Shown piece after piece: positions 9,668 through 64,000 of a DNA stretch of 64,000 bases. The position numbers and the translations under genes are program-made. Below the pieces are notes generated by a model. It did no database searches. It was not told the origin of the DNA and worked only from the letters and a program-made list of their open reading frames with translations. This stretch comes from Anaerolineales bacterium (GTDB lineage: Bacteria; Chloroflexota; Anaerolineae; Anaerolineales; Villigracilaceae): assembly GCA_030680795.1 (NCBI GenBank), contig JAUXUL010000010.1, forward strand, positions 124,001 to 188,000, read 5' to 3'. The stretch's first letter is position 1; each line of letters begins with the position of its first letter.

Positions 9668-9681
9668 TCTTGCTTTGCCTG

Positions 9682-9755
9682 TCGGGGTGAGAGGATTTGA
9701 ACCTCCGACCTCACGGACCCGAACCGTGCGCTCTACCGGTCTGAGCCACACCCCG
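9682..9755 (-). tRNA. tRNA-Pro, anticodon CGG
   Basis: All arms fold: acceptor CGGGGTG / CACCCCG with the C1-G72 pair typical of bacterial tRNA-Pro, D arm, anticodon stem CACGG / CCGTG with loop TTCGGGT (anticodon CGG), and T arm GGAGG-TTCAAAT-CCTCT. The discriminator base is A and CCA is not encoded. The 3' half is repeated as a relic at 4415-4460 in the same orientation, so the 5.3 kb between them is bracketed by direct repeats lying on the 3' side of this gene. A good promoter stands upstream. Confidence 0.95.
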
Positions 9756-41129: not shown

Positions 41130-42224
41130 TTACTGGATGATGATTCCGCCGCCGAGCATCACCTCGCCTTGATAGAACACGGCCGCCTGGCCTGCCGTCA
41201 CATCCCGAACAGGCGCATCAAACTTAACTGCGGCCTGCTCCCCTTCCATAGGGCTGACCAGCGCCTCGACCTCTTTCGCCGTATAGCGTATCTTCACTTG
41301 CGCACGGAACGGTTCACGCGGCGTTTCGCCAGAAGTCCAATTGACATCACGTGCGGTTAATTCTGTAAAGCCAAGTTCTTCCAATGTGCCAACTATCAGC
41401 GTATTGCGCCTGCCCCGAGCATCGTCGAAGGGTGATACATGTTTCGTAATAACAAATAAAGGCACAGGCGACGCGACATTCAATCCCTTACGCTGACCGA
41501 TGGTGTAGTTCGCCAGTCCATTATGCTGACCGATTGACTTGCCAGCGGTGGTCACAATTTCGCCGGGCTTCAACATTTCAGGCGCATTGCGCTGGAGGAA
41601 ATTACGATAATCATCGCCGGCGAGAAAACACAAATCCTGGGAATCTGCCCTCGCAGCAGTCGGCAGGCCGAAGTCAGCGGCGAGGCGCCGTATTTCGGGC
41701 TTGGGAAATTCACCCACAGGAAAAAGCGCATGAGCGAGCTGATCCTGATTCAAGACATGCAGAACATAAGACTGATCCTTGAAATGATCCACAGCACGCA
41801 AAAGTTCGTGTCGTCCGTCGTCCGTCATCCGTCGTCTAACATAATGTCCTGTCGCCATAAACTCTGCACCGAGAGCAAGCGCGTGATTCAATAGAAAGGT
41901 CCAGCGGATCTGACGATTGCAAATCAAACACGGGTTTGGCGTTTCGCCGCGCGCGTATCCATCCAGAAAATATTGCACAACCGTTTCTTTGAAAACTTCC
42001 TTCGCGTCAATCACATAAAACGGAATATCAAGTATGCCCGCCACGCGCCGCGCCTGCGCCATCGCATCGGGCGTGCAACAACGGTTGGATTCTTCTTTGC
42101 CGGGTTCAGACCATAAGCGTAACATCATACCGGTAACATCATAGCCCTGCTGTTTAAGCAGAGCCGCGGCTACAGAGGAATCCACGCCGCCTGACATGGC
42201 GACCACTACTTTTTGCTTACTCAT
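41130..42224 (-). CDS. mnmA: tRNA-specific 2-thiouridylase MnmA
   Basis: A 364-residue cytosolic enzyme that thiolates U34 of tRNAs for Lys, Glu and Gln. The PP-loop is AMSGGVDSSVAA near the N terminus. The first catalytic Cys is in NPCLICN, and the second in DSQDLCFLAG, the persulfide-forming pair. GHYVRR, then FKDQSYVLHVL match the family. The start at 42224 (MSKQKVVV) is preferred because a TATAAT stands nine bases before it; the longer frame would begin upstream of that promoter. Confidence 0.93.
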   Translation of the reverse strand: MSKQKVVVAMSGGVDSSVAAALLKQQGYDVTGMMLRLWSEPGKEESNRCCTPDAMAQARRVAGILDIPFYVIDAKEVFKETVVQYFLDGYARGETPNPCLICNRQIRWTFLLNHALALGAEFMATGHYVRRRMTDDGRHELLRAVDHFKDQSYVLHVLNQDQLAHALFPVGEFPKPEIRRLAADFGLPTAARADSQDLCFLAGDDYRNFLQRNAPEMLKPGEIVTTAGKSIGQHNGLANYTIGQRKGLNVASPVPLFVITKHVSPFDDARGRRNTLIVGTLEELGFTELTARDVNWTSGETPREPFRAQVKIRYTAKEVEALVSPMEGEQAAVKFDAPVRDVTAGQAAVFYQGEVMLGGGIIIQ

Positions 42225-42407: not shown

Positions 42408-42536
42408 TTATTTCAGTTTCTCTTCAACCGCTTTCGCAACTTTACTCAACGCCTCGTTGACATTGCCATCGGGTAAACTGCCTTGCGCCAGATTCGGACG
42501 TCCCCCGCCTTTGCCGCCGATGCATGTGAGGAGTCC
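42408..42536 (-). pseudogene. Relic of an alaS 3' end
   Basis: The minus strand encodes LLTCIGGKGGGRPNLAQGSL, then PDGNVNEALSKVAKAVEEKL and a stop. This aligns with the last 42 residues of the complete alaS in the window (LITGIGGKGGGHPNLAQGSL, then PDAGQVKDALAKVV...) at roughly 70% identity. It has no start of its own and begins within a few bases of the hicA stop codon. It is a displaced or duplicated gene end, not a functional gene. Confidence 0.85.
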
Positions 42537-42543
42537 ACTTGCG

Positions 42544-42768
42544 TTAGCGATGACGGAGAAATTCTTCGACGGTGAGACCGATGTCTTTGGCAATTTGTCT
42601 CGGCAAGATTGGCGAAATATCACGGCCGGCATGAAATGGGACGGTGGTTCCGCGCCTATTGGAATGGCGAAATTGACGATGAGAACCGCGTTGCCGCATC
42701 TCCACAAAACCAAGTTTCTCCAAAATGGCGGTGACTTCCCTCGGCTTTAGGACAGGCGGCTTTGACAT
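42544..42768 (-). CDS. hicA: HicA-family mRNA-interferase toxin
   Basis: A 74-residue double-stranded-RNA-binding-fold toxin. PPVLKPREVTAILEKLGF, then the catalytic-His motif RQRGSHRQF, then GTTVPFHAGRDISPILPRQI are diagnostic. HicA cleaves mRNA when free of HicB. The start lies two bases after the hicB stop, so the order is antitoxin first. The pair is inserted between alaS and a relic of the alaS 3' end. Confidence 0.92.
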   Translation of the reverse strand: MSKPPVLKPREVTAILEKLGFVEMRQRGSHRQFRHSNRRGTTVPFHAGRDISPILPRQIAKDIGLTVEEFLRHR

Positions 42769-42770
42769 GG

Positions 42771-42983
42771 TTATGCTACAACAACTTCCTGCGTGCCGAT
42801 AAACTCGGTTTCGAATTCAGGTTCGCCATCCTCAAGAAGCATTTCGATTACTTCCCGAAGGTTATCGCGCAACTCGTCAAGCGTTTCAGCCTGAGTATGC
42901 GCCCCTGGAAAACCAGGGACGTAGCCAACGTACAGACCAGTATCAGAATCTTTTTCCACGACAGCGGTAAATGTTTTACTCAT
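42771..42983 (-). CDS. hicB: HicB-family antitoxin
   Basis: A 70-residue protein with the HicB partial RNase-H fold: FTAVVEKDSDTGLYVGYVPG, then FPGAHTQAETLDELRDNLRE and a C-terminal helix. It lacks the DNA-binding domain of longer HicB proteins, so it probably does not repress its own promoter alone. It begins 15 bases after the alaS stop and may be read through from alaS. AAGG stands six bases before ATG. Confidence 0.9.
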   Translation of the reverse strand: MSKTFTAVVEKDSDTGLYVGYVPGFPGAHTQAETLDELRDNLREVIEMLLEDGEPEFETEFIGTQEVVVA

Positions 42984-42998
42984 AGGAGCCTTCGAAAT

Positions 42999-45815
42999 CT
43001 ATTTTACCTTTTCTTCGACGACTTTCACGACTTTAGCCAACGCATCCTTGACTTGTCCCGCATCAGGCAAACTACCTTGCGCCAGATTCGGATGTCCGCC
43101 GCCTTTGCCACCGATGCCTGTGATGAGATCGCCAGCTTTAAAACCGCGTTGTACCAATTCCTTACCAGCAACTGCCACTAATTTTCCTTCATCATTAGCA
43201 AATATTGCTGTGCCACCTGTGTATTTTTGTGTAAACTTGTCAGCCATTAAGCGCATTGTATCTACATCGGCATCAGGTATTTCCATTGCAAGGAATGGAA
43301 CCCCAAAAACTTCTCGCACGTTCAACATTTGAACTTCAAATATTGAATCTGCTTGTTTGGCACGAAGATTTGCCAGTTCCTGCTTGAGATCGGAGATCTC
43401 ATCCTGTAACGCTTCTACTTTGGCAGGGACTTCTTCCACGGTGGATTTTAAAGCGCCAGCAGTCTGCTTCAACGCTTTGAATCTTTTTGTGACCAAGTCA
43501 TACGCGCCGCGGCCCGTGACTGCTTCGAGGCGGCGAATGCCTGCCGCGGCCGAACCTTCACTGAGGATCAGGAATGCGCCGATGTCGGAGGTGCGCTCCA
43601 AGTGCGTGCCGCCGCAGAGTTCGTAAGAGTATTTTTTGGAGTCAGGGAGCTTGCTGCCTGTTTTGTCGGACAGCAAGCTATCCGACTCCAAAATGGAAAT
43701 CGTTCTTACGGTCTCGCCGTATTTCTCGCCGAAGAGCGCCAGCGCGCCTTCCTGCTTGGCTTTATCGAGTGACTTGGTCTCTTTGTGGACAGCCATATCT
43801 TCGGCTATCGCTTCATTGACCATCTTTTCGACACGTTCGATTTGTTCGGGCGTCATGGCTTCGGGATGGTTGAAGTCAAAACGCAAGCGATCGGGCGCAA
43901 CAAGTGAACCTGCTTGAACCGCGCCATTCCCCAATACTTCGTGAAGCGCTTGGTGGAGCAAGTGCGTGGCGGTGTGATTGCGCATGATGTTGTGACGACG
44001 GGTCGCGTCTACTTCGGCGATGGCTTTGTCGCCAACTTTGGGTTGACCAGAGATAACCTGCCCGATGTGGGTGATGACACCAGCCGAGGCGCGGCGAACG
44101 GAAGTGATTTCGATCTCCCAGCCCCCGCCCCCCTCTCGGTCTCCCCCCAAATTCTTAGAATATTGGGGGAAATGGCGGATGTAACCTTCATCGTTCACCT
44201 GACCACCAGACTCAATGTAGAAACCAGTCTTTGGCAGTATCACTTCAACTTGATCATCCAAAGCAGCCGACTCAACCGATTGGCCATTCACAATCAGAGC
44301 AAGCACTTCAAGACCTGTGTACTTGTCCGCTTGCGCGTGTGTGCCTGCATACGGATCATACTCAACACCATCTTTACCCAACTTCTTTTTCGCTTGCAGG
44401 TCTTTCAAAATATTCGCGAAGAATTCCGAATGTTCACCGCCGAGTTTGCCCATGGCTTTGCCGCCGCCGGAGGCTTTGCTATGATGTCCCTTTGCTTCAT
44501 TGAAACCTGCCTCGTCAACATCGAGTCCCTGTTCGCGGGCGATGTCGCGGGAGATTTCGAATGGCAGACCATACGTGGCGTATAGGTCGAAGGCCTTGTG
44601 ACCGTCTAAGAGCAGGGAATTGGACGCTTCGCGTTGGAGATTGGAGAGTAGATTCTCTAAATGAGCGGTACCAGCTTCCACCGTCCGTGCGAAGCGGACT
44701 TCCTCGCGAGTCAGGTTATCAAAAATGGTGGCCTTGTTCTTTTCCAGTTCGGGATAAAAGCCGCCATATTCAGCAATCACGGCTTCGGCAACTTTGGCAA
44801 GGAACGGTTCATTGAGTCCGATCTTGGTGCCAAAACGGGCAGCGCGGCGGATGATCATGCGCGTGACATAGTTGCGCCCACCGTTGCCAGGCACGACGCC
44901 ATCGGCGATCAGGAAGGCAGCGGAACGGGCATGGTCGCAGATGACGCGATAGGGCGTGAAGTCGGCTTCCATCTCGGAAACTGAATGACCCGTGAGCGAA
45001 CGCAGGACGTCGAGCGAACCTGTGAAGAGGTCGGTCTTGTAATTGGAGTCGACACCTTGCAAAACGGAGACGATGCGCTCGAAGCCCATGCCCGTATCTA
45101 CATGCTTGGCAGGCAATGGCTCGAGGCGGCCGTCTTCGAAAAGATTGTATTGAATGAAGACATTGTTCCACAGTTCGAGGTAGCGCGTGCATTCACCGTT
45201 CACGCCGCAGACATGCTCAGTGCCGCGCAGGTTGTCGCGCTCTTCGCCGAGGTCAAGGTGGATCTCAGAACACGGCCCGCACGGACCGAACTCTGCCATT
45301 TGCCAGAAGTTATCCTTGCGCCCGAAAAATAATACATGCGCAGGGTCGAAGCCGGGCTGCGCCTTCCAAATATCGGCGGCTTCATCGTCGCGCGGGATGT
45401 CGCCCTGATCATCTTCAAAACAAGTGGCGTAGATTTTATCTTTGGGCAAGCCCCACACATCGGTTAGCAACTGCCACGACCAGGCGATTGCCTCTTTTTT
45501 ATAGTAATCTCCAAACGACCAATTGCCGAGCATTTCAAAAAAGGTGTGATGCGTATCGTTACGGCCGACGTCATCGAGGTCGTTGTGCTTGCCCGCCACG
45601 CGCATACACTTCTGCGAATCCACGGCGCGCTTGTACGGCTTTTTATCCGTGCCGATAAAGACGTCCTTGAACTGCACCATGCCCGAGTTGGTGAACAGCA
45701 AAGTGGCATCCCCGCCCGGCACAAGCGACATGGACGGCACAGCCGTATGTCCGTGCTCGACGAAGAAATCTATAAAATCCTGGCGGATCTGGTTGCCGGT
45801 TGGTTTTTTGCTCAT
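42999..45815 (-). CDS. alaS: Alanyl-tRNA synthetase
   Basis: A 938-residue class II synthetase that charges tRNA-Ala, slightly longer than the usual 870-900. The catalytic N terminus opens QIRQDFIDFFVEHGHTAVPS, and motif 2 lies near NDTHHTFFEMLGNWSFGDYYKKEA. The editing domain has HTATHLLHQALHEVLG and CGGTHLERTSDIG, the zinc ligands. The C-Ala domain ends in the Gly-rich GGKGGGHPNLAQGS. A segment near residue 565 (RHFPQYSKNLGGDREGGGGW) is encoded by a palindromic repeat and is absent from ordinary AlaRS (my alignment from memory). GGAG precedes ATG, and TATAAT at 45849-45844 is the likely -10. Confidence 0.95.
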   Translation of the reverse strand: MSKKPTGNQIRQDFIDFFVEHGHTAVPSMSLVPGGDATLLFTNSGMVQFKDVFIGTDKKPYKRAVDSQKCMRVAGKHNDLDDVGRNDTHHTFFEMLGNWSFGDYYKKEAIAWSWQLLTDVWGLPKDKIYATCFEDDQGDIPRDDEAADIWKAQPGFDPAHVLFFGRKDNFWQMAEFGPCGPCSEIHLDLGEERDNLRGTEHVCGVNGECTRYLELWNNVFIQYNLFEDGRLEPLPAKHVDTGMGFERIVSVLQGVDSNYKTDLFTGSLDVLRSLTGHSVSEMEADFTPYRVICDHARSAAFLIADGVVPGNGGRNYVTRMIIRRAARFGTKIGLNEPFLAKVAEAVIAEYGGFYPELEKNKATIFDNLTREEVRFARTVEAGTAHLENLLSNLQREASNSLLLDGHKAFDLYATYGLPFEISRDIAREQGLDVDEAGFNEAKGHHSKASGGGKAMGKLGGEHSEFFANILKDLQAKKKLGKDGVEYDPYAGTHAQADKYTGLEVLALIVNGQSVESAALDDQVEVILPKTGFYIESGGQVNDEGYIRHFPQYSKNLGGDREGGGGWEIEITSVRRASAGVITHIGQVISGQPKVGDKAIAEVDATRRHNIMRNHTATHLLHQALHEVLGNGAVQAGSLVAPDRLRFDFNHPEAMTPEQIERVEKMVNEAIAEDMAVHKETKSLDKAKQEGALALFGEKYGETVRTISILESDSLLSDKTGSKLPDSKKYSYELCGGTHLERTSDIGAFLILSEGSAAAGIRRLEAVTGRGAYDLVTKRFKALKQTAGALKSTVEEVPAKVEALQDEISDLKQELANLRAKQADSIFEVQMLNVREVFGVPFLAMEIPDADVDTMRLMADKFTQKYTGGTAIFANDEGKLVAVAGKELVQRGFKAGDLITGIGGKGGGHPNLAQGSLPDAGQVKDALAKVVKVVEEKVK
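44116..44172. repeat. Palindromic repeat inserted in frame in alaS
   Basis: CCCCCAAATTCTTAGAATAT and GGGGG form an imperfect palindrome bordered by GGCGGGGG and CTCGGTCTC-type text. The same layout (CCCCCAAATT ... AATTTGGGGGAGGCCGGG) occurs inside the yqeC-mocA fusion at 49340-49402. Both are read through in frame. Confidence 0.65.
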
Positions 45816-60061: not shown

Positions 60062-60406
60062 ATGTTGAGTGAACCTATTCATGTCACAGACGAAGCCTTT
60101 GAAAAAGTGGTCATGCAATCACCGCTGCCGGTGATCGTGGACTTCTGGGCGGCATGGTGCAACCCGTGCAAGATGATTGCCCCCACGCTGGAAAAACTTG
60201 CGAAAGAACAAGAGGGCAAATTGATCGTCGCCAAAGTCAATACAGATGAACACTCTGAATGGATGCAAAAATTTGGCATTCAAGGCATCCCTACGTTGTT
60301 GTTCGTTTCAGGCGGCAAGGTGGTGCATCGTCAGGTCGGCGCTTTGCCAGAACGAATGCTGCGGGAAGTTGTCGTGCAATTCATGGAAGTTATCGGTCAA
60401 AAATAA
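60062..60406 (+). CDS. trxA: Thioredoxin
   Basis: A 114-residue cytosolic redox protein. The active site is DFWAAWCNPCKMIAP (WCNPC in place of the usual WCGPC). The cis-Pro loop is GIQGIPTLLFVSGGK. Size and fold pattern are standard. The Gly-to-Asn change between the cysteines may alter redox potential. AAAGGAAG lies six bases before ATG. A lipoprotein gene follows after 23 bases. Confidence 0.93.
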   Translation: MLSEPIHVTDEAFEKVVMQSPLPVIVDFWAAWCNPCKMIAPTLEKLAKEQEGKLIVAKVNTDEHSEWMQKFGIQGIPTLLFVSGGKVVHRQVGALPERMLREVVVQFMEVIGQK

Positions 60407-60429
60407 GACTCTATCTTAAGGAGTTGGCT

Positions 60430-61113
60430 ATGAAGAAAATGCTTGTTTTGATGGTTGTGCTTGTTGCGACGCTTAGTGGATGCCTGCCAGCCATGCTACA
60501 ACCCGAAGCGGCCAACCCAACTCTTATAACAGAAGCAGATCTTCAAACGACTGCTGAGATCCTTTCACAACAAACGCTACAGTCTTTGCCGACAGCAACC
60601 GTCGCACCAAGTGAGACAGCGGTTGTCATGACCGCCACAGAGACGCCTATACAGAGTACGCCAACCGCAACACAAAATCCAATATTGCTTACTTTGACCG
60701 CGACATTGGGCACTGGCACTGTCTCGGCGAATAACGAAACCCCTGTTAGTGGCACATTGCCATTCACAGGAACCCCGAGCGCCACTGCGAAGCCTGCATT
60801 TAGCGCCACACCCACCCTGGAAGCTCGCCCACTATCTTATGGCACATTGCCGCCCAATTTGCCTTCTGGAACCATCACCCTGATCAACAATGCGAAAGTG
60901 GATGTTTACATCTCTTTGCGGAGTGTAACCAAGGAAGGGTATATTACAATCCTGGAATATCCCATAAAATCAAGCGTCGAGGCCAAGGCTCCCGCAGGCA
61001 AATATACTTATGTTGCCTGGGTCGGCGGCAAACAATTCACCGGCGCATTTTCCCTGTCCAAAGGTCAGGACCTGGTGATCAATATTTTCAAAGACCGAAT
61101 TGGTATTAAATAG
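60430..61113 (+). CDS. Small lipoprotein A, Thr/Pro-rich linker plus C-terminal beta domain
   Basis: A 227-residue exported lipoprotein (lipobox TLSGC). A long low-complexity Thr/Ala/Pro linker (about 40-140) leads to a compact beta domain (about 150-227) with TITLINNAKVDVYISLRSVT and APAGKYTYVAWVGGKQFTG. The family is not recognised. AAGGAG eight bases before the ATG at 60430 fixes the start. The 3' 220 bases are the left part of a tandem duplication; a broken second copy lies at 61958-62345. Confidence 0.75.
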   Translation: MKKMLVLMVVLVATLSGCLPAMLQPEAANPTLITEADLQTTAEILSQQTLQSLPTATVAPSETAVVMTATETPIQSTPTATQNPILLTLTATLGTGTVSANNETPVSGTLPFTGTPSATAKPAFSATPTLEARPLSYGTLPPNLPSGTITLINNAKVDVYISLRSVTKEGYITILEYPIKSSVEAKAPAGKYTYVAWVGGKQFTGAFSLSKGQDLVINIFKDRIGIK

Positions 61114-61149
61114 AAATTACTCAAATTAAGAAATGAAATGGAGAAATAA

Positions 61150-61743
61150 ATGTTAAAAAAACTAATCCCTGTCCTTTTGGCGATTGCAGTATTGCTAACT
61201 GCATGCGCTCCGCAAGGCGCACCCACATTAGCACCCGCAGAGGTTGAAGGCACTGCTGTAGCAGCGGCCTGGACGATCGTGGCGATGACTCAATTAGCCC
61301 TCCCAACCGCTACACCCGTACCGCCGACAGAAACACCGAGCCCTACCCCATTACCCACCTTCACACCTTTTCCATTACCAACCCTGGAATTGTCCCTGCC
61401 GACAGCCACGCAAGCCACAGGCGATTGTCTAAAGCCATTGAATGTTGCAGAAGCGGGTCCTCAATCTTCCGTGCGACTTGAAAACGTATCCGGGGGTAAT
61501 AAGGTTACACTATCATTAAACTTACGCACCAACTTGTTCGGACAATGTGGATATGTAGGTTACACCTTAGGAAAAAATGAAAAGCTTGTGGTTTCCCTGC
61601 CTAAAGGCGAATACTATGCATATGCGTGGATAACCTACAGTGATGGTGACACAAGCAACGCGTCCGGCTATGTCAATAATCGCGTTGGTGATAATCACTT
61701 GTTTGTTGTAAAGATCAAAAAAGAAGTCATCTCTGTACCTTAG
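61150..61743 (+). CDS. Small lipoprotein B1
   Basis: A 197-residue lipoprotein (lipobox LLTAC). The N-terminal region has APQGAPTLAPAEVEGTAVAA and a Pro/Thr linker (TATPVPPTETPSPTPLPTF). A C-terminal beta domain (about 98-197) ends in FVVKIKKEVISVP. The family is unknown. It is the left copy of a duplicated gene; B2 at 62373 is almost identical over the first 85 residues and the last 45 or so, and very different between. GGAGAAATAA precedes ATG. It is co-transcribed with lipoprotein A. Confidence 0.78.
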   Translation: MLKKLIPVLLAIAVLLTACAPQGAPTLAPAEVEGTAVAAAWTIVAMTQLALPTATPVPPTETPSPTPLPTFTPFPLPTLELSLPTATQATGDCLKPLNVAEAGPQSSVRLENVSGGNKVTLSLNLRTNLFGQCGYVGYTLGKNEKLVVSLPKGEYYAYAWITYSDGDTSNASGYVNNRVGDNHLFVVKIKKEVISVP

Positions 61744-61768
61744 GATGCAATAAACCTACATCCACAAA

Positions 61769-61802
61769 TAACAGAAGCCACACTCTGTTGCGGCTTCTGT
61801 TA
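61769..61802 (+). terminator. Terminator after lipoprotein B1
   Basis: A perfect 11-bp stem TAACAGAAGCC / GGCTTCTGTTA with a 12-base loop, followed by TTTAATAT. It is the duplicated counterpart of the hairpin at 63002-63033. Confidence 0.8.
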
Positions 61803-61812
61803 TTTAATATAT

Positions 61813-61957
61813 TATTCACTCGCTCGTACTATCCTGGCGCCTAACATTCGCAATTTCTCATCCACTCACTCATCGCCTCTTTCGATTTGAACAACATTGC
61901 GTATTTCCGAGGTCCCTTTCGCCGTCAATGCCGCCAGCATCAGAGCGATACCTGCAA
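61813..61957 (-). pseudogene. Relic of the murA 3' end
   Basis: The minus strand encodes AGIALMLAALTAKGTSEIRN, then VVQIERG, matching the C-terminal MurA residues AGMALLLAALAAKGTSEIRN. It has point differences and a short deletion near the end. It has no 5' part and joins lipoprotein A sequence at the duplication junction. Confidence 0.85.
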
Positions 61958-62345
61958 GGCGAAAGTGGATATTTACATCTCTTTGCGGTGTGTAACCAAG
62001 GAAGGGTACATAACGATTCTTGAATATCCCGTGAGTCCATTGCAAAAACAAAATACTTAACGCGAAGGCGCAAAAGCGCAGAGAAATTCTGAAATTCGGA
62101 TTGAAAATCTTGAAAATATAGCCGTCAAATAGCTCAGAATCCCCTCGCGGCTTTGCGTTATGCTCTTGACCTATAGGCAGTGCAGTCTCCCATAAAATCA
62201 AGCATCGAGGCCAAAGCTCCCGCAGGCAAATATGCTTATGTTGCCTGGGTCGGCGGCGGACAAATCACCGGCGCATTTTCCCTGTCCAAAGATCAGGACC
62301 TGGTGATCGATATTTTCAAAGACAGAATTGGTATAATATGGAAAT
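61958..62345 (+). pseudogene. Broken second copy of lipoprotein A
   Basis: GCGAAAGTGGATATTTACATC onward matches lipoprotein A codons for AKVDVYISL; after TGAATATCCC the match stops, and it resumes at CCCATAAAATCAAGC (62189) through to FKDRIGI. It lacks the signal peptide and linker and is split by an insertion, so it is not functional. Confidence 0.85.
62031..62187. repeat. 157-base insertion carrying a GCAAAGCGCAGAG-type repeat
   Basis: The insert contains TTAACGCGAAGGCGCAAAAG near its left and CTCGCGGCTTTGCGTTA near its right, which are partly inverse complementary. Its precise ends are defined by comparison with the intact copy at 60960. It resembles a dispersed palindromic element that jumped into the relic. 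Confidence 0.65.
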
Positions 62346-62372
62346 TACTCGAATTAAGAAATGGAGAAATAA

Positions 62373-62978
62373 ATGTTAAGAAAACTAATCCCCGTCCTTT
62401 TGGCGATTGCAGTATTGCTAACTGCATGTGCTCCGCAAGGCGCACCCACATTAGCGCCCGCAGAGGTAGAAGGCACTGCCATAGCAGCGGCCTGGACGAT
62501 CGTGGCGATGACTCAATTAGCCCTCCCAACCGCTACACCCGTACCTCCGACAGAAACACCCAGCCCTACCCCATTACCCACCTTCACACCTTTTTCATTA
62601 CCAACCCTGGGATTATCCCTGCCGACAGCCACTCCGAAAACTGCTACTGGAGCCTGTGATGGAATCATGAATATTGCCGAAGCTGGGCCTAAATCTAATG
62701 TACGGATCGAAAATGAATCTGGAGGAACGGCTACTTTTTCGCTGTACCTCGGTAAACCTAACGCATTTGCCCAATGTGGATTCGTGCCCGGCTTATCCCC
62801 ATTGAGTAAAAACAGTAGTTTGACAGTTTCCATACCGAAGGGCGAGTATTTTGCTTTTGCGTTGATCGCTTATCCGGATGGCTCTTCAAGCAACGCATCC
62901 GGCTATGTCAATAATCGGGGCGGGGATAACCACACGTTTGTTGTCAAGATCAAAAAGGAAGTTATCGTTGTACCTTAA
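62373..62978 (+). CDS. Small lipoprotein B2
   Basis: A 201-residue lipoprotein (lipobox LLTAC), the right copy of the duplicated gene. Signal, linker and the C-terminal NASGYVNNRGGDNHTFVV nearly equal B1. The centre of the beta domain (about 92-150, for example FAQCGFVPGLSPLSKNSSL) has diverged strongly and has a different length. Function is unknown. GGAGAAATAA precedes ATG as in B1. No promoter of its own was identified. Confidence 0.78.
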   Translation: MLRKLIPVLLAIAVLLTACAPQGAPTLAPAEVEGTAIAAAWTIVAMTQLALPTATPVPPTETPSPTPLPTFTPFSLPTLGLSLPTATPKTATGACDGIMNIAEAGPKSNVRIENESGGTATFSLYLGKPNAFAQCGFVPGLSPLSKNSSLTVSIPKGEYFAFALIAYPDGSSSNASGYVNNRGGDNHTFVVKIKKEVIVVP

Positions 62979-63001
62979 TAGATCGATAACAACCATAAAC
63001 C

Positions 63002-63033
63002 AAAAAGAAGCCGCAATAATGCGGCTTCTTTTT
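63002..63033. terminator. Bidirectional terminator between lipoprotein B2 and murA
   Basis: A perfect 14-bp stem AAAAAGAAGCCGCA and its complement with loop ATAA, giving a T-run in both directions. Confidence 0.9.
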
Positions 63034-63035
63034 GG

Positions 63036-64000
63036 TTACTCGCTCACCCGTTCGATTCTGGCGCCCAATAAACGCAATTTCTCATCCACGCGCTCGTAGC
63101 CTCTTTCGATTTGAATCACATTGCGTATTTCCGAGGTCCCTTTCGCCGCCAGTGCCGCCAGCAGCAAAGCCATGCCTGCGCGAATATCCGGGCTCTCAAG
63201 TTTTTCACTGAACAACTGTGTCGGACCTTGAATCAAACAGCGGTAGGGATCGCATAAAATAATTCTTGCACCCATGCCGACCAGCTTGTCTGTAAAATAC
63301 ATTCTGCCCGAGAACATCCAATCATGGATAAGCACAGAACCGGCAGCCTGAGTCGCAACTGTGATCGCGATGCTGATCAGGTCGGTTGGAAAAGCAGGCC
63401 AGACGTTCGTCTTGATCTCAGGGATGGCCCCATCAAGGTCGGAAATTATCTTAAGCGATTGTTCCGCTGGGACAAGCAGGTCATTCCCATCCACCTGCCA
63501 GTGGACTCCCAGACGATGAAAGACCTGCCTTACCATTTCAAGGTGCTGAACACCGGCATTGCGAATGCGAATTTCCCCGCGAGTTACAACCGCCGCTCCG
63601 ATATAGCTGACCACTTCCAACAGGTCGGGGCCGATTGTAAATTCACCGCCATGCAAACGCTGAACACCCGTGATGTGCAAAGTATTCGAACCAATGCCTT
63701 CAATCTGCGCCCCTAATAAATTTAGAAAGGCGCACAGCTCCTGGACATGCGGCTCAGAGGCTGCGTTGCGGATCTGGGTTTTTCCTTTGGCAAGGACCGC
63801 CGCCATGACAGCGTTTTCTGTGGCAGTCACACTGGCTTCATCCAATAGAATATCGGCCCCGTGGAGTTCTGCTGCTTCAATATCGAAGATGCGGTCATAA
63901 TTGACTTTTGCGCCAAGCGCATGCAAAGCCAGGATATGCGTATCCAGGCGGCGGCGGCCAATGACGTCCCCTCCCGGGGGAGGCAGGCGCACTGCTCCAG
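63036..64000 (-). CDS. murA: UDP-N-acetylglucosamine 1-carboxyvinyltransferase (MurA), partial
   Basis: The C-terminal 321 or so residues of MurA, the first committed enzyme of peptidoglycan synthesis. The 5' end lies beyond the window. The active-site loop reads LPPPGGDVIGRRRLDTHI; the catalytic Cys (C115 in E. coli numbering) is replaced by Asp, encoded at 63968-63966. This is the natural variant known from mycobacteria and chlamydiae that does not bind fosfomycin covalently. Later landmarks are TATENAVMAAVLAKG and the C-terminal RAGMALLLAALAAKG, then GYERVDEKLRLLGARIERV. The last 145 bases are duplicated at 61813-61957. Confidence 0.92.
   Translation of the reverse strand, partial: GAVRLPPPGGDVIGRRRLDTHILALHALGAKVNYDRIFDIEAAELHGADILLDEASVTATENAVMAAVLAKGKTQIRNAASEPHVQELCAFLNLLGAQIEGIGSNTLHITGVQRLHGGEFTIGPDLLEVVSYIGAAVVTRGEIRIRNAGVQHLEMVRQVFHRLGVHWQVDGNDLLVPAEQSLKIISDLDGAIPEIKTNVWPAFPTDLISIAITVATQAAGSVLIHDWMFSGRMYFTDKLVGMGARIILCDPYRCLIQGPTQLFSEKLESPDIRAGMALLLAALAAKGTSEIRNVIQIERGYERVDEKLRLLGARIERVSE

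Follow-up and report, generated by a model that had tools for sequence, protein, structure and literature searches.

The alaS-hicBA locus

The 64,000-nucleotide stretch analyzed here (the window) comprises positions 124,001 to 188,000 of contig 22 (JAUXUL010000010.1) of an Anaerolineales bacterium (GCA_030680795.1, hereafter G000), a 3.45-Mb draft genome of 54 contigs. On its minus strand it carries the alanyl-tRNA synthetase gene alaS, which is followed by a predicted hicBA toxin-antitoxin (TA) pair and, beyond this cargo, by a second copy of the alaS 3' end. The complete alaS (42999..45815, 938 amino acids (aa)) was assigned from its open reading frame (ORF) and the Pfam domains tRNA-synt_2c, tRNA_SAD and DHHA1. 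A spacer of 15 bases (42984..42998) separates its stop from the predicted hicB-like antitoxin gene (42771..42983, 70 aa), to which the predicted hicA toxin gene (42544..42768, 74 aa) adjoins. A Pfam search returned HicA_toxin (PF07927) at 68.2 bits against a cut-off of 27 for the toxin, while its partner matched UPF0150 (PF21748; 34.5 vs 27.3 bits) and, marginally, HicB_lk_antitox (PF15919; 27.6 vs 27 bits). With hicB first and hicA second in an adjacent pair, the predicted proteins fit a HicAB toxin-antitoxin system by the HicA domain and the adjoining HicB-type partner.

The second alaS end is a relic of 126 bases with its own TAA stop (42408..42533, minus strand), identified by DNA and protein alignment to the alaS end; it begins 10 bases past the hicA stop and not right at it, as a preliminary description of this DNA had placed it. 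The minus-strand order given there, alaS, 15 bases, hicB, hicA and a copy of the alaS end, was otherwise confirmed by the ORFs and Pfam matches, and the identity of roughly 70% that it assigned to the two ends holds for the protein (71–73% over 45 residues) but not for the DNA, where relic and own alaS end are 79% identical over 128 aligned columns (E = 3e-27; 83% over an ungapped 80). The next gene past the relic (41130..42224, minus strand), which we take to be mnmA, likely starts at an ATG at its upper end, as judged by comparison with the relative G001, whereas the ORF list had an upstream TTG; it also lies downstream of alaS in G001, G023 and G006. G001, a separate genome, has the identical layout with hicBA 97% identical at the DNA level, and the second alaS end behind hicBA is therefore confirmed as real and due neither to chance nor to an assembly error.

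Second alaS ends in related genomes

The alaS C-terminus was searched in 151 genomes (G000 included), and 60 alaS regions were fetched and scanned together with the window, giving 61 loci. A second alaS end downstream of an intact alaS was present in four of these (G000, G001, G023 and G088) and was not found in the other 57, of which L054, L067, L071 and L083 had less than 1 kb of downstream sequence. A chance-level match in L097 (E = 0.76) was left uncounted, as was the frame-broken alaS of L077 (contig 2 of the two-contig genome G017, ~310–319 kb), which is split into two frames, possibly by a sequencing error. A profile built from 28 alaS tails matched 126 of 152 genomes of the family and recovered a pair in the same four genomes only, and across the order it matched 304 of 334 genomes with no further clear alaS-end pair by per-genome match counts. 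Double matches in G189, G349, G097 and G369 were rejected as such pairs, as they lie in other frames of ~410–434 aa, and so were the second matches in G079 and G204 (frames of 427 and 278 aa); in G293, also a double match in the order-wide search, the alaS tail lies at a contig start. Four genomes could not be judged for a second end, namely G003 and G006, in which a contig edge falls within or close to the alaS tail, and G008 and G042, where the match stops early.

The preliminary description had suggested looking for other cargo between alaS and a relic of its end, and such cargo was indeed found: hicBA occupies the same place in G000 and G001, G023 carries a 479-aa DUF6056 protein, and G088 a 182-aa protein that stays below the cut-off of every Pfam family. 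The inserts measure ~0.5–1.6 kb, every locus has a single relic, and intact tail and relic are homologous in all four cases (73–93% DNA identity). Mapped on a 57-row tree of the alaS core, the second end requires three changes to account for the four rows that have it, which points to about three events.

Direction of the proposed displacement

The direction is best seen in G088. Its relic, which begins 113 nt before the stop, is 86% identical over 117 nt to the alaS end of the genus-mate G069 and groups with it at an ultrafast bootstrap of 97, whereas its intact tail is 86% identical to that of G009 from another genus (bootstrap 88) and 80% to that of G069. Along the last 900 nt of the G088 alaS, G069 is ahead of G009 in 13 of the 18 upstream alignment windows, with 2 ties and 3 opposite cases, and reaches 0.97 vs 0.92 at −135..−75, while in the final two windows (~last 90 nt) G009 is ahead (0.82 vs 0.75 and 0.87 vs 0.69). 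This switch suggests that the exchanged tail starts at the GGKGGG motif or directly past it; the relic begins at the same place. The relic of G088 thus appears native in type and its intact tail foreign in type, which supports displacement of the native end by an incoming tail, as the preliminary description had proposed for G000.

For G000 itself this course of events is inferred. Its relic is closer to the alaS end of G052 (89% identity) than to that of the alaS next to it (79%), so that a fresh duplication, already doubted in the preliminary description, is disfavored here and in G001 by the affinities of relic and tail, as it is in G088; the G023 case may be one. The relics of G000, G001 and G088 all begin inside the conserved coding motif GGKGGGxPNLAQ (43074..43127 in the window, minus strand), which is also where the identity between G000 and G001 shifts; in G088 the shift lies just downstream of the motif. 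Together, identity shift and relic starts mark this motif as the likely crossover zone. The final 75 nt of alaS (42999..43073), in which G000 equals G001 (0 of 11 fourfold sites differ), would then be the incoming tail.

Comparison of G000 with G001 further sets the tail and hicBA apart from their surroundings. Only 4 of 83 fourfold sites differ in this block, in contrast to 46 of 164 in mnmA (p = 7.5e-6), 13 of 60 in the first 120 mnmA codons (p = 0.003) and 137 of 336 in the alaS core, which amounts to a divergence of 5% against 28–41% in the flanks, and G000 and G001 therefore share a more recent common ancestor in this block than in the genes on both sides. The two HicA proteins differ at 7 amino acids, and the relics are identical at 103 of 119 positions.

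The same layout at other genes

Relics of a host-gene end behind small cargo were also found at genes other than alaS, for which the names ALDH, UvrD, MBL, amidase, ABC-F, murA and sulfatase reflect our reading of the sequences and not a family search. Behind an ALDH-like gene of G031 (L302 939–2893, contig 94) lie three cargo units, and a copy of the gene end closes each of them: a 77-aa ORF with a PIN protein (relic of ~95–96 bases), a ParE locus (~76–77) and a SnoaL-like protein (~27–29). At acs of G060, identified by its AMP-binding and ACAS_N domains, two relics are stacked (L092 4205–5723, contig 50). The first unit there consists of a RelB-like ORF below the Pfam cut-off and a toxin that looks frame-broken, with a relic of ~47–48 bases, and the second of a 74-aa ORF of no family and a ParE toxin, with a relic of ~114–115 bases. 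Arrays of displaced ends thus occur at the ALDH-like gene and acs, not at alaS. A VWA-domain gene carries hicBA in two genomes, with a relic of 63 bases in G040 and one of 30 bases in G016, and fourfold differences at this locus run in the same direction as at alaS (hicB 8 of 33, host gene 67 of 146; p = 0.03). Behind a UvrD-like helicase gene of G033 lie a ParE pair, two more small ORFs and a relic of 78 bases. Cases without a TA call comprise a 511-aa membrane gene with sulfatase-like cargo (G026), an MBL-like gene in another family (G127), and amidase and ABC-F genes of G000 whose cargo is mostly on the opposite strand.

The distance from the cargo stop to the relic is 10 bases in G000 and G001, 16 in G088, 2 in the second acs unit, 6, 2 and 19 at the ALDH-like gene, 19 at the UvrD-like gene, 13 in G016, 9 in G026, 156 in G040 and more than 70 in G023. 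It is at most 19 bases in 9 of 11 same-strand units, a count that leaves out the first acs unit with its frame-broken toxin. The occurrence of this arrangement in relatives, with different cargo and at different genes, points to a recurrent route by which small genes may settle at gene ends while the host genes stay intact.

Proposed mechanism and rival explanations

We propose, with a probability of about 0.78, that a foreign alaS 3' end together with its cargo recombined into the resident alaS and displaced the native end. Foreign DNA carrying an alaS 3' end and a small cargo, here hicBA, would recombine inside the most conserved 3' stretch of the resident gene, leaving an intact alaS that ends in the incoming tail, the cargo directly next to it, and the resident tail beyond the cargo as a relic. 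The best reading of the reaction is homologous recombination anchored in the gene 3' end, comparable to the C-terminal displacement of rhs genes: a single crossover in the tail of a circular molecule of tail and cargo would give exactly this product, or alternatively the other end of a linear molecule could be joined through short homology, i.e. by homology-facilitated illegitimate recombination. Gene 3' ends may be suitable landing places because an essential gene stays whole and same-strand cargo could be read from its promoter. The proposal draws on the anatomy of the locus, on three cargos at one gene, on the native-type relic and foreign-type tail of G088 with their switch near the relic-start motif, on the block of low divergence formed by tail and hicBA in G000 and G001, and on the same layout, including stacked copies, at other genes.

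Several observations weigh against this proposal. The short distance between cargo and relic is not predicted by random end-joining. The spacer past the relic is likewise similar between G000 and G001 (174 of 183 positions), and the young tract may therefore extend beyond the relic, its right edge being open, while constraint may explain part of why hicBA has so few synonymous differences, although HicA differs at 7 amino acids. No hicBA donor was found, since full hicBA DNA is limited to G000 and G001 among the 152 family genomes, two further matches being fragmentary (77 and 23 bases), and across 400 genomes of the order no other HicA exceeds 55% identity. The tails used for the tree are just 120 nt long; the G088 tail has a distance of 0.27 to G069 vs 0.21–0.24 to G050, G009 (0.22) and G046, it shares one clade of support 78 with G069, and the support for the pair of G000 and G001 relics is 72. 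The intact tail of G000 has no close match outside G001 (81% to G019 and G052), and no close insert-free sister was found that would tell native from incoming tail directly. In G023, relic and intact end are mutual best matches (93% over 293 nt), and a near-kin donor or a duplication are therefore both possible.

The compact spacing of cargo and relic, unexplained by random end-joining, is the main reason to keep a further and rather tentative reading, which we consider clearly less probable than the displacement proposed above. Small ORFs of Anaerolineales, often TA pairs, might travel as cassettes composed of the ORFs, their stop, at most ~20 bases and a copy of the last 30–130 bases of the host gene, stack at shared docking ends and pass between species via gene-end exchange, in an integron-like capture that has no integrase of its own. 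In integrons, cassettes consist of a small gene with a recombination sequence within a few bases, and they stack. The units described here resemble these in the small gene closed within a few bases by a recombination sequence and in the stacking, but no attC was seen by eye, and the repeated sequence is that of the host-gene end and varies between genes.

Displacement of the alaS end by homologous recombination also has to be weighed against site-specific integration, in which a recombinase, now absent or acting in trans, would have used the alaS motif as attachment site for an element that brought its own alaS end. Prophages and islands enter gene 3' ends, the intact gene is rebuilt and the cargo is compact, and the relics of G000/G001 and G088 begin 128 and 113 nt before the stop, i.e. 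within 15 nt of each other in the same motif. However, a Pfam scan of the alaS insert proteins matched no integrase family, the 25 Pfam families most frequent in 103 neighbouring proteins include no integrase, and a home-made, imperfect integrase profile that included some wrong ORFs gave no match in the 60 alaS loci or the window. Relic lengths moreover vary within one locus (~95, 77 and 28 nt at the ALDH-like gene, ~114 and 47 nt at acs), which favors ordinary homologous recombination, and the G023 relic starts at least 170 nt further upstream than the other alaS relics, so that we regard site-specific integration as improbable. The likeness to integration at tRNA ends, drawn in the preliminary description, accordingly holds for the anatomy, while an integrase-driven process found no support in these weak tests.

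Even less probable is a tandem duplication of alaS end and hicBA within the lineage, followed by loss of the second hicBA and decay. While the nearness of the two G023 ends would suit it, and a murA-end repeat of ~1.0 kb in the window (80% identity) looks like such a duplication, it agrees poorly with the G000 relic, whose similarity to G052 exceeds that to its own tail, and with the relic and tail of G088, which are nearest to different lineages. Insertion of an integron cassette at a secondary site can practically be discounted. The relative G026 does have an array with GTTAGGC-containing repeats and a HigBA-like pair, but the repeat at alaS is host-gene coding sequence, no attC core was seen in the 10-base junction between hicA and relic, which was inspected by eye only with no attC program run, and integron insertion is not known to duplicate 126 bases of a host gene. 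The array in question (L166 2333–6578, contig 1 of G026, ~382–387 kb) is integron-like, with repeats of 56–103 bp, some of which contain GTTAGGC, and small genes between them.

Relation to known systems

Integration at the 3' end of a gene can leave the gene functional, as with the prophage e14 at icd and the SGI1 island at trmE (42.4 kb). These elements are integrase-carrying and far larger, whereas the alaS inserts are short and no integrase was found. The closest precedent is the displacement of C-terminal tips of rhs genes, for which homologous recombination with a circular intermediate was proposed (Jackson et al. 2009, PMC2935791). In this system, an intact gene acquires a different 3' end together with associated genes, its former end is moved downstream, and repeated events lead to arrays (PMC2935791). 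An incoming 3' end with a displaced old end is found in G088 and probable in G000 and G001. In contrast, rhs tips are non-homologous alternatives, whereas the alaS tails differ little in the housekeeping sequence that they encode, and their cargo consists of a gene or TA pair of its own. As intact tail and relic are homologous, the alaS case works like rhs displacement but is not a member of it; it is a variant of an already known 3'-end displacement, which would here affect a housekeeping gene and recur in the family. Similarly, displacement of effector-immunity modules of the Vibrio cholerae type VI secretion system by homology-facilitated illegitimate recombination was proposed, though not proven (Kirchberger et al. 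2017, PMC5361080). In that proposal, one side serves as a homologous anchor, the other is joined illegitimately, and the former genes or gene ends move downstream (PMC5361080); the displaced parts named there are immunity genes and effector ends, whereas here it is the relic of an essential synthetase. A search of open-licence literature, covering titles and abstract openings under the terms used, returned no report of this layout at alaS, nor of a TA pair that separates a gene from its displaced end.

Chromosomal TA pairs are patchy in distribution, and how short integrase-free modules move is often unclear. Host-gene-end relics past the cargo can be read as scars of single acquisitions, which reveal the anchor, the direction, perhaps the order of arrival and sometimes the donor lineage. 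Should a full survey bear the pattern out, gene 3' ends would generally serve small genes as landing sites, and the way in which these are acquired could be tested from sequence. The alaS case also cautions that the C-terminal end of an aminoacyl-tRNA synthetase can have a history different from that of the rest of the protein.

Controls at gene starts and toxin-antitoxin loci

A symmetric DNA test of 914 genes from three genomes gave 6 genes with a tail-only copy at most 4.5 kb away, among them alaS and two others that rest on 27 and 35 bases, and 1 gene with a head-only copy, which adjoins the integron-like array; the excess of tails over heads is in the expected direction and small. A protein-level scan did not recover alaS in G000 and G001, probably because low-complexity sequence was masked, and returned head matches at 7 genes. 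Among the 4 inspected, one was a real gene-start copy (glycosyltransferase-like gene of G026, 53%), and 3 look like spurious ORFs or repeats. Another copy of a gene start was seen in G000 (L219, contig 54), where a ParE-type TA pair lies at the beginning of a ParA-like gene and 35 bp of that beginning are repeated upstream (1192–1225 and 1761–1795).

Direct repeats flanked the central gene in 16 of 69 HicA or ParE loci versus 0 of 30 GNAT loci (p = 0.002), both sets being those returned by the searches and not random samples. Gene-end relics accounted for 5 of the 69 TA loci (L006, L201, L206, L222, L223) versus 0 of 30 GNAT loci (p = 0.32), and small genes in general had direct repeats around them in 33 of 475 cases (alaS locus included), many in few repeat-rich places; an enrichment of TA pairs behind gene-end relics was thus not borne out. 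The other 11 repeat-flanked TA loci include paralogs or a whole-gene repeat (L191, L010), a REP-like repeat (L193) and the head copy of L219, while the remaining 7 were given no class (L011, L204, L224, L236, L237, L239, L244). Integron-like arrays confound such direct-repeat counts around TA loci. The order-wide HicA search yielded 10 further loci, 9 without an internal direct repeat and one (L296) with two.

Further features of the window and its surroundings

Upstream of the motif, alaS contains an AT-rich, diverged C-Ala patch with approximate boundaries (43122..43418, minus strand; alaS ~−420..−124), in which GC drops to 0.39 in 150-base segments. The patch is 59% identical to G001 at the nucleotide level, and its tested part is at most 52% identical in amino acids to any sampled alaS; it appears to be a separate exchange, apart from the hicBA event.

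The tandem repeat of ~1 kb at 60400–63100 of the window (80% identity) spans a lipoprotein-like gene together with the ends of a murA-like gene and of a neighboring one; its murA copy is a relic with a stop and was kept apart from the gene-end cases. The sole tRNA found in the window is tRNA-Pro(CGG) at 9681–9755. On the same contig of G000, at ~207–211 kb (L134, L133), a cluster of repeats surrounds small genes and includes a REP-like CCCTTCCCCC...GGGGGAAG element.

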